A stretch of 32,046 nucleotides of DNA from the NCBI GenBank assembly GCA_030539175.1, contig JAUNSN010000013.1, positions 1-32,046 of the forward strand. Direction: 5' to 3'. The notes beneath the pieces are model-generated. The model did no database searches and had not been told where the DNA came from. It worked only from the letters and a program-made list of their open reading frames with translations. This DNA comes from a bacterium. Its GTDB lineage: Bacteria > Bacillota_I > Bacilli_A > RF39 > UBA660. Positions within the stretch are counted from its first letter, which is position 1. Each line of letters begins with the position of its first letter. A program made the translations under genes and the position numbers. Below, in pieces: positions 7,570-18,780 of the stretch.

Positions 7570-7600
7570 TTGTATATAGTAAGTTTAAGGTATTTTGGTA

Positions 7601-7690
7601 TAATTTGTAAATGTCAATCTTTTTTTGGATAAAAATGGCAATCTAGGAATTGGACAGTTTTGACCAAAAAAAGATTGACATTTACAATTA
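7601..7690. mobile_element. transposon-end palindrome (MITE-like or internally deleted IS)
   Basis: A perfect 24-bp inverted repeat (7605-7628 with 7664-7687) extends outward by TAAT with one bulged T and inward with imperfect matches (AAAA, TG, C, AAT), so almost the whole 90 bp is symmetric. Two insertion-sequence ends facing each other with nothing between them would look like this. The end sequence (TGTAAATGTCAATC..., TTTTTGG, then GACAGTTTTG) and the short repeated AATGTACA boxes just downstream recall IS21-type termini. No transposase is present here. Confidence 0.55.
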
Positions 7691-7917
7691 CTCCCTAACA
7701 AGATAACGGGTATGTATCCACCATGCTTGATAGTGTTAATGATACTAAAGAATGTACAAAAAGTGGAATATAAAAATGTACATTAATGTACATCAAATAT
7801 CCATTTAAAATACATTCTTTTTTGATACGATAATCTCCAGAAATGGAGGTGAAAAAGAATGTCTAATCTGAAAGGAGTTAAATAGTCATATGAAATAATT
7901 TTATTAACAAGCTCTTA
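7691..7917. other. non-coding remnant stretch before the Bce operon
   Basis: No gene of normal size. AATGTACA occurs at 7751 and twice more in the stretch 7774-7793, the latter as an overlapping palindrome. At 7859-7885 a ribosome site (GGAGGTG) precedes an ATG that opens only MSNLKGVK before a TAG, which may be the clipped start of a transposase gene. The stretch looks like debris of an insertion sequence that left the palindrome at 7601-7690. Confidence 0.35.
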
Positions 7918-12434: not shown

Positions 12435-12490
12435 AAGAAACTCCTTTCGAATATACCAATATATTAACTTAATAATTATAAAAAATCAAT

Positions 12491-12538
12491 TATAATATAA
12501 AAAAACTATTGCTATAACAACAGTTTTTTTATATTATA
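12491..12538 (-). terminator. terminator downstream of tRNA-Ala
   Basis: Arms of 21 bp (12491-12511 and 12518-12538) with a 6-base loop and one position that pairs as G-U only on the minus strand. With A/T runs inside the arms it works as an intrinsic terminator for the minus-strand tRNA and separates it from the BceR-type operon. Confidence 0.75.
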
Positions 12539-12567
12539 ACTCGTTTTACACAAGTTGAAATCTATTT

Positions 12568-12644
12568 TGGTGGAGAATAAGGGACTCGAACCCTTGACCC
12601 TCTGCGTGCAAGGCAGATGCTCTAGCCAACTGAGCTAATTCCCC
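12568..12644 (-). tRNA. tRNA-Ala (UGC)
   Basis: On the minus strand the sequence folds as a full cloverleaf: acceptor GGGGAAT/ATTCTCC (one G-U), anticodon loop CTTGCAC giving TGC, T arm with GGTTCGAGTCC and an encoded CCA (12570-12568). A strong minus-strand terminator follows. Confidence 0.97.
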
Positions 12645-12794: not shown

Positions 12795-15425
12795 ATGACA
12801 AAATATGTTTATTCATTTGATGAAGGAAACAAAGAAATGAAGAATTTACTAGGAGGTAAAGGAGCTAACTTAGCAGAGATGACAACAATTGGATTACCAG
12901 TGCCAAGTGGTTTTACAGTAACGACTGAAGCTTGCAATAAATATTATGAAGATAATAAAATTATAAGCGAAGAAGTTAAAACACAAATTTTTGAAAAACT
13001 TGAGGTTTTGGAACAAACAAGTAATAAGAAATTTGGTGATTTAAATAATCCATTATTAGTATCAGTAAGAAGTGGTGCTAGAGCAAGTATGCCAGGAATG
13101 ATGGATACAGTATTAAATCTTGGTTTAAATGATGAAGTAGCAAAAAATTTAGCAGCAACAACCAATAATAAGAGATTTGTTTATGATTCATACCGACGTT
13201 TTATTATGATGTTTGCAGATGTTGTGAAAGGTTATTCAAAGAACACTTTCGAAAAGGCTTTTGAAAAAATAAAAGAGTCTAAAAATGTTGTCTATGATAC
13301 TGAATTATCAGCAGATGATATGTACGAAGTAGCAATGGAATTTAAAAAAATATATCAAGAACTAGATGGAGACGAATTTCCACAAGAACCTAAAATTCAA
13401 TTAATTGAAGCAATTACAGCTGTATTTAGGAGTTGGAATAATGAAAGGGCAATTATTTATCGTCGAATGAACGATATTCCATCATCATGGGGAACAGCTG
13501 TCAATGTTCAAGAAATGGTATATGGTAACATGGGAGAGACTTCTGGAACTGGTGTTGCTTTTACTAGAAATCCAGCAACAGGAGAAAAAAAATTATATGG
13601 TGAATACTTAATTAATGCCCAAGGAGAAGATGTTGTTGCTGGTGTTAGGACACCACAGAGTATTGAAACATTAAAAGACATTATGCCACAAATATATGAA
13701 GAATTTGTTGAAGTTGCTAAAATATTAGAGAAACATTATGCTGATATGCAAGATATGGAATTTACTATAGAAAATAAGAAATTATTTATGTTGCAAACAA
13801 GGAATGGAAAAAGAACAGCAAGTGCAGCATTAAAAATTGCTGTTGATTTAGTGAATGAACAAATGATTAGTAAGGAAGAAGCATTACTAAAAGTAGATCC
13901 AAAACAGTTAGATCAACTATTACACCCTAACTTCGATACTAAAAGCTTACAACAAGCTAAAGCTATTGCAACTGGATTAGCAGCTTCACCTGGAGCAGCA
14001 ACAGGAAAAATTTATTTTAATGCTTTAGATGTAAGTGAACACGCTAATGCTGGTGAAGATACTTTGTTAGTAAGATTAGAAACATCACCAGAAGATATTC
14101 AAGGTATGAGCGATGCCAAAGGCATTCTTACAATAAGAGGAGGAATGACTTCACATGCGGCAGTAGTAGCTCGCGGTATGGGAACTTGTTGTGTGTGTGG
14201 ATGCGGTGAGTTAACAATTGATGATGAGAATAAAACTTTAACAACAGCCAGTGGTCTTGTCTTTAAAGAAGGAGATTATTTATCATTAGATGGGTCAACT
14301 GGAAAAGTATACGGGGAAAAGATTAAAACAGTTGAACCAGCAATTAGTGGAGATTTTGAAACATTTATGAAATGGGCAGATGATGTAAGAACGTTAAAAA
14401 TAAGGACAAATGCCGATACCCCAAGTGATGCTAAAAAAGCACTTGATTTTGGAGCAGAAGGAATTGGATTATGTCGAACAGAGCATATGTTCTTTGATAG
14501 TGATAGAATCCTTGCTATGAGACAAATGATAGTTGCTGATACAGCTGACGAAAGGGAAAAAGCTTTAGAAAAATTACTTCCAATGCAAAGAAAAGACTTT
14601 GAAGGCATATATGAAGTAATGAAAGATTTACCAGTAACAATTCGTTATTTAGATCCACCATTACATGAGTTTTTACCTCATACAAAAGAAGAAATAGAAC
14701 AATTGGCAAAAGAATTAAACATGGATGTTATCAAATTAACTAATAGAATAGACAGTTTAAAAGAGTTTAATCCTATGATGGGACATCGTGGTTGTCGTTT
14801 AGCAGTTACCTATCCAGAAATTGCTAAAATGCAAACTAGAGCAGTAATAGAAGCGGCAATTAACGTTAATAAAAAGGGATTTTCTATTGAACCAGAAATT
14901 ATGATTCCGTTAATTGGAGATATAAAAGAATTAAAATATATTAAAAGTATTGTTGTTGAAACAGCCGATAACATTATAAAGGAAAACAATGCAACCCTAA
15001 AATATAAAATAGGAACAATGATAGAAATTCCACGTGCTGCTCTTACAGCCGATGTTATTGCGACAGAAGCAGAATTTTTCTCATTTGGTACTAATGACTT
15101 AACGCAAATGACTTATGGTTTTTCAAGAGATGATGCATCAAAATTTTTAGATGATTATTATAAAAAAACCATATTTGAGTCAGATCCATTTGCTAGACTT
15201 GATCAAACAGGTGTCGGTCAATTAGTTGAAATGGCAGTTAATAAAGGACGTTCAACTCGACCAAACATTAAGTTAGGTATTTGTGGAGAACACGGTGGAG
15301 ATCCATCAACAGTTGAATTTTGTTACAAAATTGGTCTCAATTATGTATCATGTTCACCATTTAGAGTTCCAATAGCGCGTTTAGCTGCAGCTCAAGCTGC
15401 TATCAAAACAGTGAGTAGTAAATAA
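12795..15425 (+). CDS. ppdK: pyruvate phosphate dikinase
   Basis: 876 residues, full length for the family. The enzyme interconverts pyruvate + ATP + Pi and phosphoenolpyruvate + AMP + PPi; in anaerobic Firmicutes it usually runs in the PEP-to-pyruvate direction to yield ATP. Visible parts: N-terminal nucleotide-grasp domain opening GGKGANLAEM, the swivelling phosphohistidine domain with His454 in GGMTSHAAVVARGMG, and the PEP/pyruvate TIM barrel with LCRTEHMFF and the catalytic Cys830 in GICGEHGGD. Start ATG has AAAGGAAG upstream. The last codons (AAIKTVSSK) lie in a 28-bp sequence repeated twice downstream, at the ends of two inserted units, so the 3' end appears to serve as an integration site and this C-terminus may have been supplied by the insertion. 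Confidence 0.98.
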   Translation: MTKYVYSFDEGNKEMKNLLGGKGANLAEMTTIGLPVPSGFTVTTEACNKYYEDNKIISEEVKTQIFEKLEVLEQTSNKKFGDLNNPLLVSVRSGARASMPGMMDTVLNLGLNDEVAKNLAATTNNKRFVYDSYRRFIMMFADVVKGYSKNTFEKAFEKIKESKNVVYDTELSADDMYEVAMEFKKIYQELDGDEFPQEPKIQLIEAITAVFRSWNNERAIIYRRMNDIPSSWGTAVNVQEMVYGNMGETSGTGVAFTRNPATGEKKLYGEYLINAQGEDVVAGVRTPQSIETLKDIMPQIYEEFVEVAKILEKHYADMQDMEFTIENKKLFMLQTRNGKRTASAALKIAVDLVNEQMISKEEALLKVDPKQLDQLLHPNFDTKSLQQAKAIATGLAASPGAATGKIYFNALDVSEHANAGEDTLLVRLETSPEDIQGMSDAKGILTIRGGMTSHAAVVARGMGTCCVCGCGELTIDDENKTLTTASGLVFKEGDYLSLDGSTGKVYGEKIKTVEPAISGDFETFMKWADDVRTLKIRTNADTPSDAKKALDFGAEGIGLCRTEHMFFDSDRILAMRQMIVADTADEREKALEKLLPMQRKDFEGIYEVMKDLPVTIRYLDPPLHEFLPHTKEEIEQLAKELNMDVIKLTNRIDSLKEFNPMMGHRGCRLAVTYPEIAKMQTRAVIEAAINVNKKGFSIEPEIMIPLIGDIKELKYIKSIVVETADNIIKENNATLKYKIGTMIEIPRAALTADVIATEAEFFSFGTNDLTQMTYGFSRDDASKFLDDYYKKTIFESDPFARLDQTGVGQLVEMAVNKGRSTRPNIKLGICGEHGGDPSTVEFCYKIGLNYVSCSPFRVPIARLAAAQAAIKTVSSK

Positions 15426-15426
15426 T
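15393..15426 (+). repeat. att-like repeat copy 1 (in ppdK 3' end)
   Basis: The core CAAGCTGCTATC (15393) to GAGTAGTA (15420), then AATAAT, includes the ppdK stop codon. The 28-bp core is identical to copy 3 (18620-18647) and differs by one base from copy 2 (17311-17338). The sequence to its right (15421-15455) matches the right flank of copy 2 but not that of copy 3. Within ppdK only the right half of the palindrome seen in copy 3 is present. Confidence 0.8.
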
Positions 15427-15499
15427 AAAAATATCTATAAGTGTTTTAAGTAAATTAGGCATTTACAATAATTGTAATTACTTGTGGGTAGTAGAATAA

Positions 15500-15545
15500 A
15501 AAAAAGGCTAAAATAACTATTAATATAGTATTCTTAGTCTTTTTT
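15500..15545 (+). terminator. terminator after ppdK, inside unit 1
   Basis: AAAAAAGGCTAA (15500-15511) pairs with TTAGTCTTTTTT (15534-15545, one G-T), with further imperfect pairing inside and a T run. It ends ppdK transcription before the AbiE promoter. Since it lies right of the insertion point, unit 1 brought it. Confidence 0.75.
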
Positions 15546-15591
15546 CTTTGAATTAAGACTTCGGTACAATGAAAAAAAGGAGTGGTTCAAA

Positions 15592-15684
15592 GTGCAAATA
15601 TTACATACAAAATCAAAAATAATTAATAATCAAGTTGACATTTCTAAGGAAAAATGCTATTCTTTTCCTAGAAAAAGGAAATGA
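15592..15684 (+). CDS. possible 30-residue leader ORF
   Basis: GTG at 15592 has AAAGGAG nine to fifteen bases upstream and opens a 30-codon frame (MQILHTKSKIINNQ...) that ends in TGA at 15682-15684, overlapping the ATG at 15681. It covers the -35 and -10 boxes of the abiE promoter, so it can only be read from an upstream transcript. It may be a small protein or chance; no family is recognised. Confidence 0.2.
   Translation: MQILHTKSKIINNQVDISKEKCYSFPRKRK
15635..15672 (+). promoter_or_regulatory. abiE promoter with overlapping inverted-repeat operator
   Basis: TTGACA (15635-15640), 17 bp, TATTCT (15658-15663) preceded by TGC. TCTAAGGAAAA (15643-15653) and TTTTCCTAGA (15663-15672) form an inverted repeat with one extra base that brackets the -10 box. 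AbiEi antitoxins are known to repress their own promoter through inverted repeats, so this is the likely operator. Confidence 0.65.
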
Positions 15685-15689
15685 TATAT

Positions 15690-16283
15690 ATGAATAATTA
15701 TAATAAAATTATAACTTACGCTAAAGAAAATAATGGATATATTACTACTAAAGAAAGTGAAATTATAAATGTTAATAGTATTTTTTTAAGTAATTTAGTA
15801 AATGATAAAAGATTAGAAAGAGTTGGCCCAGGAATTTATAAATTACCAGAATATCCAATTGATAATTTTTATATCTTATCTAAAAGTAGCAAGAATATGT
15901 GTTATTCTCATGCTACAGCATTATATTTACATAATATGTCTGATAGAATTCCATTAGTTTACGATATCACTGTTCCATATAATTATAGTGGTAATTTATT
16001 GAATAATGAAAATGTATCACTTAGATATGTTAAAGAAGATATTTTTAAGCTAGGTATGACTGATATTAAAACTATCAATAATCTTACAGTTAAGTGTTAT
16101 GATTTAGAAAGAACATTATGTGATATCATTAAGGATAAAAATCGTATGGATAAGGAGATTTATTCTAAAGCTTTAAAGGAATATGCTAGGAAGAAAGACA
16201 AAGATGTTTTGAAATTAATTAAATATTCTAAAAAGTTAGATGTTGAAGAAGAAGTTGTTGAATTAATGGAGGTATTATTATAG
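15690..16283 (+). CDS. AbiEi-family antitoxin / autorepressor
   Basis: 197 residues from ATG 15690, preferred over ATG 15681 because the AAGGAA site sits at 15676-15680, too close to 15681. The N-terminal winged-helix region (about residues 1-55: GYITTKESEIINVNSIFLSNLVNDKRLERVGPGIY in parts) is the AbiEi antitoxin domain, and the middle (CYSHATALYLHNMSDRIPL, then TVPYN) is the conserved AbiEi core. Known homologues bind their own promoter and, together with AbiEii, form type IV toxin-antitoxin systems that stop phage replication by abortive infection. The stop codon touches the next start with no gap, so the pair is translationally coupled. It lies in an insertion unit behind ppdK. Confidence 0.88.
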   Translation: MNNYNKIITYAKENNGYITTKESEIINVNSIFLSNLVNDKRLERVGPGIYKLPEYPIDNFYILSKSSKNMCYSHATALYLHNMSDRIPLVYDITVPYNYSGNLLNNENVSLRYVKEDIFKLGMTDIKTINNLTVKCYDLERTLCDIIKDKNRMDKEIYSKALKEYARKKDKDVLKLIKYSKKLDVEEEVVELMEVLL

Positions 16284-17138
16284 ATGAACTCTGACAAATT
16301 AAATAGTATTATCAAAAAGAAGTCTAATGGTAATAATAATTTAGCACATCATTTTCATCAAATGTTTTTCTTCGAACATGTTTTAATGAGATTAGAAAAA
16401 AGTAAGTATAGGGATAATGTTATTTTAAAGGGTGGTGTTCTACTTTCTTCTATTATTGGAGAGGATTTAAGAACTACTAAAGATATTGATGCTACTTTAA
16501 AAAGTTTACCATTAAATATAAAATCTATTAGAGACATCTTTGAAGAAATATTATTTATTCAAATAGATGATAATGTTAATTTTGAAATAGTTGGTATTAA
16601 GGATATAAGATTAGAAGATGAGTATGGTGGATTTAGAATAAATGTTAATGGTATATTTTATAACATAAAAACCAACTTCTTTATTGAAATAACTACTGGA
16701 GATATTATTACGCCAAGAGAAATTAAATATAAATATAGTTCTATCTTTGAAGATAGAAAAATAAATATTATGGCATATACAATTGAAACTATTATTGCGG
16801 AAAAGTTTGAAAGTATTGTTAGCAAAAATATTACTACCACTAGAGCTAAAGACTTTTATGATTTATATATGTTAATAAAAAAACATAAAAGACAAATTAA
16901 TAATAAAAATTTAGTTAAAGCTATTAAGAATACATTTAATAAAAGAAGTACTGAATTTAATATTGATAATTTTAAGGAAATAGTAGAAATATTAAAAGAT
17001 AGTAATGTTGTTAAAAGAGTATTTACTGATTATCAAAGAAAACTGGAATATACAAAAGAAGTAAGTTTTGATGATACCATTATAGCAATAAATGAAATTA
17101 TTAATATAGTAGAGCAAGAATTAATTGCAATACAGTGA
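16284..17138 (+). CDS. AbiEii/AbiGii-family nucleotidyltransferase toxin
   Basis: 284 residues. The nucleotidyltransferase motif is clear: LKGGVLLSSIIGED (GG at residues 50-51) and then RTTKDIDATLK with the metal-binding Asp67 and Asp69; a third acidic position is in the following strands. The C-terminal part (KFESIVSKNITTTRAKDFYDLYML) is the typical AbiEii segment. Family members are toxins thought to transfer nucleotides to a cellular target, with tRNA shown for some relatives. Start ATG directly follows the AbiEi stop; GGAGG lies about 11 bases upstream. It ends in TGA at 17136-17138, about 150 bp before the right end of the unit. Confidence 0.9.
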   Translation: MNSDKLNSIIKKKSNGNNNLAHHFHQMFFFEHVLMRLEKSKYRDNVILKGGVLLSSIIGEDLRTTKDIDATLKSLPLNIKSIRDIFEEILFIQIDDNVNFEIVGIKDIRLEDEYGGFRINVNGIFYNIKTNFFIEITTGDIITPREIKYKYSSIFEDRKINIMAYTIETIIAEKFESIVSKNITTTRAKDFYDLYMLIKKHKRQINNKNLVKAIKNTFNKRSTEFNIDNFKEIVEILKDSNVVKRVFTDYQRKLEYTKEVSFDDTIIAINEIINIVEQELIAIQ

Positions 17139-17284
17139 CAAACAGTTAAAAAATGATATTATATTATAATAAATCAATACAATATTTTAGTTTTGTCTAA
17201 AATTAGATGTGTACAAGATATTGATAGATAATTAAATTAGTCACAAATTGAAATTAATAGTTGCTAATATATTTTTATTATATT

Positions 17285-17344
17285 AACTACTTACTATTTA
17301 ACAAGTGGTACAAGCTTCTATCAAAACAGTGAGTAGTAAATAAT
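17285..17344 (+). repeat. att-like repeat copy 2 with unit 1 right end
   Basis: Core 17311-17338 differs from copies 1 and 3 by a single base (GCTT instead of GCTG) and continues AATAAT as in copy 1. The 26 bp to its left (ACTACTTACTATTT, then AA.TG..A) align with the left flank of copy 3 (ACTACTCACCATTT...), so they are the conserved right end of the inserted units. The outer inverted repeat is degenerate here (AACTACTTAC against GTGAGTAGTA). Confidence 0.7.
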
Positions 17345-17481
17345 TAAAATAATACCTTTATTCATAAGTGTTATAAGTAAATAAATCAAAAAATTTCAAA
17401 TACTTTAATCAATGTATTTACTAAAAAATAATTCAACGAGAGCATTATTTAATAGATCTATTGCACTGTAATTAATCAAAA

Positions 17482-17517
17482 AGCATACAGGAAAGTATAC
17501 AGGAAAGCGTATAAGAA
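17482..17517 (+). repeat. three tandem 12-bp repeats upstream of the fic promoter
   Basis: AGCATACAGGAA, AGTATACAGGAA and AGCGTATAAGAA follow each other without gaps and end four bases before the -35 box. Regularly spaced boxes like these suggest a regulator binding site, or a recombination accessory site. Confidence 0.5.
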
Positions 17518-17521
17518 ACAA

Positions 17522-17550
17522 TTGACTTTGATTAGTGAAAATAGTATAAT
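17522..17550 (+). promoter_or_regulatory. fic promoter
   Basis: TTGACT (17522-17527), exactly 17 bp, TATAAT (17545-17550). It shows that translation cannot begin at TTG 17522 and favours ATG 17576. Confidence 0.75.
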
Positions 17551-17575
17551 ACAAACAGAAATAAAGGAGATTAAT

Positions 17576-18571
17576 ATGAATAATTATAATCCACCATTTA
17601 CTGTAACAAATCTTATGCTTGAAAGAATTTCTTCTATAATGAAAAAAATTGGAAAGTTAGATAATTATAAAGATTTAAACAAGCTGCCTATTTTAAGAAG
17701 AAATAATAGAATTAAATCAATTCATTCTTCCTTAGCAATTGAAGCCAATTCTTTGTCTTTAAATGAAGTAAAAGATATAATCGATGGTAAATTAGTTGTT
17801 GGACCAAAAAAAGAAATTCAAGAAGTAAAAAATGCTTATAATGCTTATTTGAAAATTAAAGAAGTAAATCCATTTTCTATTAAAGATTTAAAAAAAATAC
17901 ATGGAATAATGACTTACTTAACGGTAAAAGATTCTGGAGAATTTAGAAAAGATAATGAAGGTGTTTTTGATGAGAATGGAACTTGCATTCATATTTGTCC
18001 ATCACCTGAACAGGTAAACAAGTTAATGAAGCAATTATTTGATTGGATGGATAGTAATCAAAAAAATCTTCATCCTTTGATTTTATCTTCAATATTTCAT
18101 TATGAATTTGTGTTCATTCATCCATTTAGTGATGGTAATGGAAGAACTGCTAGAATATGGCAAAATATAATATTATCAAATTGGGAAAGGCTTTTTGAAT
18201 ATATTCCAATTGAAAGTGAAATAAAAAAATATCAACATGACTACTACGAATCCATTAATGAATGTAATTCGAAGGGAGATTCAACTTTGTTTATTGAATT
18301 TATGTTGAAAATGATTGATGAAGTATTAGATGATCTAATGAGTAGTGTTGCAAATCAAATTAATCATGCTAGTCCATATGTAAAGAAACTATTAACTGTT
18401 ATGGAAACAGGAGTAATGTATACAACTAATGAATTAATGGAATTGTTAAAAATGAAATCGAGAATCTCTTTTAGAGAAAATTATTTGATACCAGCAATTG
18501 ATAATGGATTAGTTAAAATGTCATTTCCAGATAGTCCAACAAATAAAAATCAAACATATTATAAAGAATGA
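17576..18571 (+). CDS. Fic-family AMPylator (class II-like)
   Basis: 331 residues from ATG 17576, which follows AAAGGAGA and lies downstream of the promoter. The catalytic loop is IHPFSDGNGRTAR with His182, fitting the consensus HPFxxGNGRxxR of enzymes that transfer AMP from ATP to a protein Ser/Thr/Tyr. An N-terminal helix carries SSLAIEANSL, close to the (S/T)xxxE(G/N) inhibitory motif of class II Fic proteins, with A in place of G/N after the Glu. The region about 270-331 resembles the winged-helix tail of Fic/DOC proteins (TNELMELLKMKSRISFRENYLIPAIDNGLV), probably DNA binding. It is alone in its unit with no separate antitoxin. Targets are unknown; a toxin or defence role is inferred from context. 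Confidence 0.92.
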   Translation: MNNYNPPFTVTNLMLERISSIMKKIGKLDNYKDLNKLPILRRNNRIKSIHSSLAIEANSLSLNEVKDIIDGKLVVGPKKEIQEVKNAYNAYLKIKEVNPFSIKDLKKIHGIMTYLTVKDSGEFRKDNEGVFDENGTCIHICPSPEQVNKLMKQLFDWMDSNQKNLHPLILSSIFHYEFVFIHPFSDGNGRTARIWQNIILSNWERLFEYIPIESEIKKYQHDYYESINECNSKGDSTLFIEFMLKMIDEVLDDLMSSVANQINHASPYVKKLLTVMETGVMYTTNELMELLKMKSRISFRENYLIPAIDNGLVKMSFPDSPTNKNQTYYKE

Positions 18572-18593
18572 TAGTATTTTAGATATTATTATT

Positions 18594-18647
18594 TACTACT
18601 CACCATTTGATAAATGACACAAGCTGCTATCAAAACAGTGAGTAGTA
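18594..18647 (+). repeat. att-like repeat copy 3 with two nested inverted repeats
   Basis: Outer arms TACTACTCAC (18594-18603) and GTGAGTAGTA (18638-18647) are perfect reverse complements. Inner arms TTTGATA (18606-18612) and TATCAAA (18628-18634) are also perfect, with spacers of 2 and 3 bases between inner and outer arms and a 15-base loop. The right-hand half is the core shared with ppdK. The whole could fold as a hairpin with one unpaired base, which is the geometry of a folded recombination site. Confidence 0.7.
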
Positions 18648-18780
18648 GAATAAAGAATATACAGAAAAACATGCATTCATAAGAGAAAAGATAGACAAAT
18701 AAGAATAATATTTTATATAATAAAAAATCAACAAAATCAATAATTGAAGATATATGTAAAGTTAGGATATGATAAATATT

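Follow-up and report, generated by a model that had tools for sequence, protein, structure and literature searches.

A nested inverted repeat behind ppdK as the probable attachment site of a small gene cassette of serine-integrase type

For the capture of single-gene cassettes, integrons provide the textbook example. Several other described systems insert larger elements into the 3' ends of conserved genes. ECC, which we consider below together with SCC and SCCmec, is about 32 kb long and contains inverted repeats in both attR and attECC; tandem ECCs were not directly observed in that work (PMC6222049). Many Dehalococcoides ssrA islands (DsiB serine recombinase) lie in tandem; every island is flanked by a repeat of the ssrA 3' end, preceded directly by a conserved motif, and the integrase is CcrB-like, some islands being without integration genes (PMC3146451). 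In Bacteroidota, PvCTn-like conjugative transposons use the ppdK 3' end as target, at the codons AQAA, and regenerate the stop codon (PMC11005914). The double-stranded sites of large serine recombinases (LSRs) are pseudo-palindromic, with inner and outer half-site motifs, and in a Listeria integrase structure the zinc-ribbon domain reads positions 16–24 of the attP half-site (PMC3783163). Here we analyzed a bacterial DNA stretch of 32,046 nucleotides (the window), in which a folded-looking repeat behind ppdK most likely represents the site by which a small mobile gene cassette is attached at its right-hand end.

The nested repeat and the ppdK array of the window

The features of the array are collected in Table 1. 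Direct reading of the sequence agrees with the initial annotation, which had described a nested perfect inverted repeat at the right end of the second unit (site C). The outer arms, TACTACTCAC (18594–18603) and GTGAGTAGTA (18638–18647), and the inner arms, TTTGATA (18606–18612) and TATCAAA (18628–18634), are all perfect, with spacers of 2 and 3 nt and a 15-nt loop (18613–18627). When first-order Markov sequences matched to the window in length and composition were searched for any nested perfect repeat with 10+7 arms, spacers up to 4 and a loop up to 40, only 1 of 100 contained one. The real window holds two further such nests, at 7606–7686 and 12490–12539, both of which are ordinary long hairpins. 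Long perfect or near-perfect hairpins span 7594–7698 (44-nt arms) and 12482–12547 (33-nt arms), the latter directly preceding a tRNA-Ala gene (12568–12644). Across the 193 genomes of the family considered below, CTACTYAC-N20..50-GTRAGTAG is present solely at the two right ends of this window.

Table 1 Features of the ppdK array in the window.
Feature	Coordinates	Strand	Basis or remark
ppdK, pyruvate phosphate dikinase, 876 aa, insertion target	12795..15425	+	Pfam PPDK_N, PEP-utilizers, PEP-utilizers_C; translation
Copy A, right half only, ppdK/cassette-1 junction	15393..15420	+	predicted crossover dinucleotide C15393/A15394
Cassette 1, 1918 bp core to core	15394..17311	+	boundaries by analogy with transferred cassettes; sequence
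Terminator-like GGCTAA...TTAGTCTTTTTT after ppdK	15500..15549	+	resembles terminators behind relatives' ppdK 3' ends / cassette starts
AbiEi antitoxin	15681..16283	+	PADLOC AbiEi E 8e-61
AbiEii nucleotidyltransferase toxin	16284..17138	+	Pfam AbiEii E 1e-35; PADLOC
Site B, cassette 1 right end, ...AACAAGTGGT before ACAAGC	17285..17338	+	degenerate inverted repeat
Cassette 2, 1309 bp core to core	17312..18620	+	sequence; boundaries from transferred cassettes
Fic-domain protein	17522..18571	+	Pfam Fic E 8e-23; start possibly ATG at 17577
Site C, probable attR-type right end of cassette 2	18594..18647	+	nested inverted repeat; dyad C18620/A18621
Displaced older ppdK 3' end, 20 open codons, QAAIKTVSSRIKNIQKNMHS then stop	18620..18682	+	read from sequence

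The 28-bp identity of site C to ppdK had been reported correctly, and three copies of it are located, at 15393–15420, 17311–17338 (one mismatch) and 18620–18647. The exact 21-mer occurs in the window's own genome at these three copies only and has no match across the GTDB genomes, a collection that may exclude the own genome. As had also been claimed, the ppdK copy has the right half alone, the left half being absent, and the middle copy (site B) is degenerate. In site B, the outer arm has one G-T wobble and the inner arm is broken. A point missed in the initial annotation is that the outer-arm dyad of site C is the exact start of the 28-bp identity.

Dyad symmetry reaches 14 of 20 positions in site C, as compared to 4–6 at neighbouring shifts, and 13 of 20 in site B, while in the sites of relatives it is slight (6.8/20). 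The pairing between a site's own halves is likewise strongest in site C (−21.9 kcal/mol), with site B second (−14.5 kcal/mol). Scored with the family half-site matrix, site C is poor (−4.6, compared to 6.6 for site B and a cassette median of 13), and site B is the best-scoring ACAAG of the window. As the symmetry of the relatives' sites is slight, the strong palindrome of site C is lineage-specific or partly due to chance; our guess is that a lineage-specific recombinase lies behind the higher symmetry of sites B and C.

Counted from the dyad (the half-site position numbers are our own count), the inner arms occupy half-site positions 8–15 and the outer arms 18–27, and the family motif GCC.CCC falls at positions 18–24. 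Serine-integrase sites are pseudo-palindromes of ~50 bp centred on the crossover dinucleotide, and the 54-bp site C has its dyad on the core. Because of this position of the dyad, and because the outer arms lie at the attP zinc-ribbon spacing, site C fits a double-stranded serine-integrase site.

The AbiEi, AbiEii and Fic genes of the two cassettes are all on the ppdK strand. The AbiE operons of other genomes match the operon alone (about 15608–17126), so that AbiE is considered to be cargo and not part of the cassette frame. A relative of the Fic protein (38%) is found behind a cassette core in another family genome (G183, locus L188). The present last codons of ppdK (QAAIKTVSSK) would come from cassette 1. 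Both cassettes have ATAAGTGTTNTAAGTAAAT in common shortly after their start (15437–15455 and 17364–17382), which is perhaps part of a carried ppdK 3' untranslated region. A degenerate copy, GTGGGTAGTAGAATAA (15484–15499), lies between the ppdK stop codon and the terminator and shares GTAGTAGAATAA with 18638–18653, to the right of site C; this copy is perhaps left over from an older site or from the original end of ppdK.

Cassette arrays and large serine recombinases in related genomes

Our comparison set consisted of the ppdK loci in 193 genomes of the family. These genomes mostly appear to be metagenome-assembled, one per species, and the named LSR-carrying loci suggest a placement among uncultured Bacilli and Candidatus Pelethosoma, Mycoplasmatota. 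In several of the genomes, the last ppdK bases repeat downstream and the loci consist of tandem units. The cassette-core pattern TACAAGCNGCNATYAA was found at ~65 places in 36 of the 193 genomes, spanning 33 genera, as compared to 1 for the reversed control. A slightly wider pattern, from which a few chance coding matches were removed, yielded the final set of 75 cassette ends. Their left halves have GCC.CCC.AAC..G.C.GT.GT in common directly before ACAAGC; it should be noted that conservation of ACAAGC was imposed by the core pattern used for collection, whereas the left-half consensus was not. The right halves encode varied in-frame ppdK C-termini (QAAIKAKKN, QAAINNK, QAAIKSAGKNQ and others, each before a stop codon), often followed by a ppdK-type terminator. 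Such sites lie downstream of ppdK, on the same strand, at 36 of 82 ppdK loci (some genomes being counted more than once) and upstream at none. The earlier suggestions that a mobile unit ends here in what looks like a recombination site, and that ppdK is the primary (attI-like) target bearing one half, are supported.

Homology between cassettes of different genomes starts 0–5 bases before the ACAAGC core in 6 of 8 pairs, with an earlier start only in pairs whose left halves are also alike. The cassette unit therefore extends from core to core. It opens with a substitute ppdK 3' end including the stop codon, continues with one or more genes and closes with a half-site of its own. A cassette start after the 28-bp copy was considered and dropped; the homology of transferred cassettes begins at ACAAGC. 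The median cassette length is 1158 bp (43 intervals up to 3.5 kb), and 60 of 62 cassette ORFs of at least 70 aa are on the ppdK strand. Among the proteins encoded by the cassettes are helix-turn-helix plus Bro/KilA-N proteins, acetyltransferases, Abi_2/AbiD, cation efflux proteins, an APH-like kinase and others, as well as proteins resembling ToxN-type toxins behind short tandem repeats in tandem units, one of them without a Pfam hit. At one locus (L079 of G178), a pair of diverged units sharing the same ToxN-like gene and tandem repeats is arranged head to tail about 833 bases behind ppdK, and similar units are seen at L072, L058 and L166. Several cassette sites are located at contig ends, as expected for variable arrays.

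In two pairs of genomes from different genera, the cassettes are far more alike than the ppdK ends (98.0% vs 74.5% identity for G019/G099 and 98.8% vs 86.5% for G114/G183). As the cassettes are nearly identical despite the diverged ppdK genes, single cassettes, bounded by their cores, have moved recently between genera.

In G039 and G172, larger ppdK-linked units were found that code for a recombinase of ~540 aa, in which a Resolvase and a Recombinase domain are recognised; the ends of these units are sites of the type seen in the small cassettes. The nearest NCBIfam models of this LSR are CcrB and CcrC, both far under their cut-offs (for CcrB, 138 bits vs 900). About 13 of the 193 genomes carry a member of its clade, taken at 57% identity or above (below this, identity drops to 47%). 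At 17 of 51 LSR loci in GTDB genomes, ppdK lies upstream on the same strand, many of the other loci being cut by contig ends or belonging to distant relatives, and 23 loci have an ACAAGC/ppdK-like site downstream, at most about 3 kb from the LSR segment that was matched. The window's own genome is without the ppdK-linked clade (best identity 40%) and has ten other LSRs. As autonomous and small units with the same type of end share the same target, the small cassettes would move in trans. In IMG/VR, the clade was not found (best 39%); there, GTACAAGCNGCNATYAAA has 102 matches, with one match each among the matches listed and hence no array.

Further observations concern the LSRs themselves. The genomes of the family, including the own genome with its ten LSRs, are small (about 1.2 Mb) but rich in LSRs, which are found in 155 of the 193, with up to 20 in each. 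At L063 (3683–5725) and L061 (4974–7007), the LSR-bearing units also carry a PHP/ATPase protein that is related to TrlF-family ATPases but below cut-off, together with other cargo, and may themselves be defence islands. In G130 (L057/L298), a broken LSR, with a stop codon after its first 101 aa (93% identity), stands just before a cassette site; this is a dying helper element. LSRs that are 58–67% identical to the ppdK-linked one are found in Lachnospiraceae and other Clostridia with no ppdK nearby (L278–L284, L288), and the Lachnospiraceae relatives gave no clear flanking repeat pointing to a target gene.

Explanations for the site

All of our evidence is comparative, and among these genomes, mostly one per species, no cassette circle, empty site or polymorphism within a species was seen. 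On this basis, we consider it probable that 18594–18647 is the attR-type end of a small non-autonomous cassette, in an array at ppdK built by a CcrB-like LSR. An LSR of the cassette-chromosome type would build, or would have built, the array by joining a circular cassette to the ppdK 3' end at the CA inside ACAAGC (ppdK codons A-Q-A). The left end of the cassette would supply a substitute ppdK 3' end, with a stop codon and usually a terminator, so that ppdK would stay intact, and at the right end the (P) half-site of the cassette would be retained and would adjoin the ppdK half that had been displaced. Since substitute and native ends are similar, the junction at ppdK would be reusable, and cassettes could stack in one orientation, as in integrons. 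The nested arms of site C would then represent two-fold half-site motifs, with the inner arms near the core and the outer arms at the zinc-ribbon position. Against this explanation stand the lack of the ppdK-linked LSR clade in the own genome, where a helper for the array was thus not seen, the poor score of site C on the family half-site matrix and the slight dyad symmetry in relatives.

The initial annotation had instead likened the geometry of the arms to that of an integron attC site. Under such a reading, the double hairpin of site C would be folded from a single strand and used by an IntI/Xer-type tyrosine recombinase, with ppdK serving as attI, in agreement with the perfect nested arms with one extra spacer base, the ppdK half-site and the integron-like array. 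However, when arm covariation was examined in the right ends of relatives, as the initial annotation had proposed, the complementarity of a site's own halves was no higher than that of shuffled pairs (P = 0.74, n = 75; P = 0.30 with sites B and C of the window included). Left/right complementarity is visible only in site C and, more weakly, in site B, and folding is not a common property of the cassette ends. Furthermore, homology between cassettes starts at ACAAGC, in the loop, whereas with attC the outer right arm would be the start, and relatives have an LSR at the locus. No integron integrase was found in the own genome (assembly 95.8% complete), where the three tyrosine recombinases found (XerD-like, XerC-like and a 219-aa protein) reach 75–141 bits with integron-integrase models vs a cut-off of 265. 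A folded integron-type site is thus very improbable. What stands of the likeness to integrons is the organisation of the array into short, same-strand, tandem cassettes; attC folding and an integron integrase are not supported. A cassette that ends in a nested palindrome does not necessarily carry an attC, as the attR of cassette-chromosome elements looks alike.

Small islands could also have been put into the ppdK 3' end by a tyrosine integrase, like other elements at gene 3' ends. This stretch of ppdK is also the target of PvCTn elements in Bacteroidota (PMC11005914), and the own genome encodes the 219-aa tyrosine recombinase, but the ppdK-linked elements inspected encode an LSR, and the length and spacing of the half-sites fit LSR sites, such that we regard this route as improbable. 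As for the tyrosine recombinases of the own genome as movers, these were judged unlikely, the candidates being below the integron-integrase cut-off. A further possibility is that the ppdK 3' ends were duplicated in tandem, or recombined by homology, with no dedicated recombinase, which agrees with right halves that are ppdK-like and nearly identical within the window. This has very little chance given the common non-ppdK motif of the left halves, the same-strand units with sharp core boundaries and the single moves between genera. The palindrome has just as little chance of being the transcription terminator or an RNA hairpin of fic: it lies 22 bases past the Fic stop codon, but no T run stands behind it (GAATAAAG...), and the right arm consists of the coding sequence at the ppdK 3' end, of which there are three copies.

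Comparison with described systems

The locus can be described as a miniaturised, integron-like cassette-chromosome system at ppdK, with recombination inferred from the sequences. No paper on LSR cassette arrays at ppdK was found in the open-access literature, and as far as this literature shows, the novelty lies in the miniature format of the cassettes, in their spread over many genera and in the combination of an integron-like stacking with a recombinase of the serine type. A wider reading, which we put forward tentatively as possible but short of probable, is that of a serine-recombinase counterpart of integrons, a widespread platform of uncultured gut Bacilli/Mycoplasmatota in which an LSR acting in trans would capture, stack and shuffle small cassettes at the ppdK 3' end and exchange them between genera. 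As part of this joint reading, some cassettes would carry defence or toxin-antitoxin genes, and the replacement ppdK 3' end would keep the target reusable. An unrelated recombinase class appears to support an integron-like organisation across dozens of small-genome gut genera, with many small genes as cargo, among them AbiE, Fic and Abi_2/AbiD-like ones. Should this be confirmed, defence genes would have a route from one uncultured lineage to another, serine-integrase sites that are reusable by nature would be at hand, and the ending of several contigs beside arrays might be explained.

Among the known systems, the staphylococcal and enterococcal cassette chromosomes (SCC/SCCmec, ECC), which have Ccr large serine recombinases, resemble the present locus in that a conserved gene is entered at its 3' end, this end recurs as direct repeats and attR contains inverted repeats (seen here in site C of the window, with weak symmetry in relatives). 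A relationship of the ppdK-linked LSR to CcrB, its nearest model, may be a further likeness. They differ in that their target is the rlmH 3' end and not ppdK, while the LSR found here is far under the Ccr family cut-offs and the units are mostly 0.3–3 kb, with one or two genes, stacked in arrays. The Dehalococcoides islands share the tandem copies of the target 3' end, the motif before the repeat, the CcrB-like integrase and the integrase-free units, whereas their target is tmRNA, their repeat is 20 bp long, the islands are larger, the cargo is reductive dehalogenases and the distribution is within one genus. PvCTn-like elements have the same ppdK target stretch and a regenerated stop codon in common with our cassettes, but are conjugative, carry T4SS genes, belong to another phylum and have no described cassette arrays (the integrase type is unnamed in the paper's text). 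Integrons, finally, are alike in their primary site by a fixed gene, their short, same-strand, recombinase-free cassettes, their diverse cargo and exchange between genera. In contrast to integrons, the system described here would use a serine recombinase and double-stranded half-sites with no conserved folding, and its fixed gene is the housekeeping gene ppdK, the 3' end of which would be replaced by each cassette.
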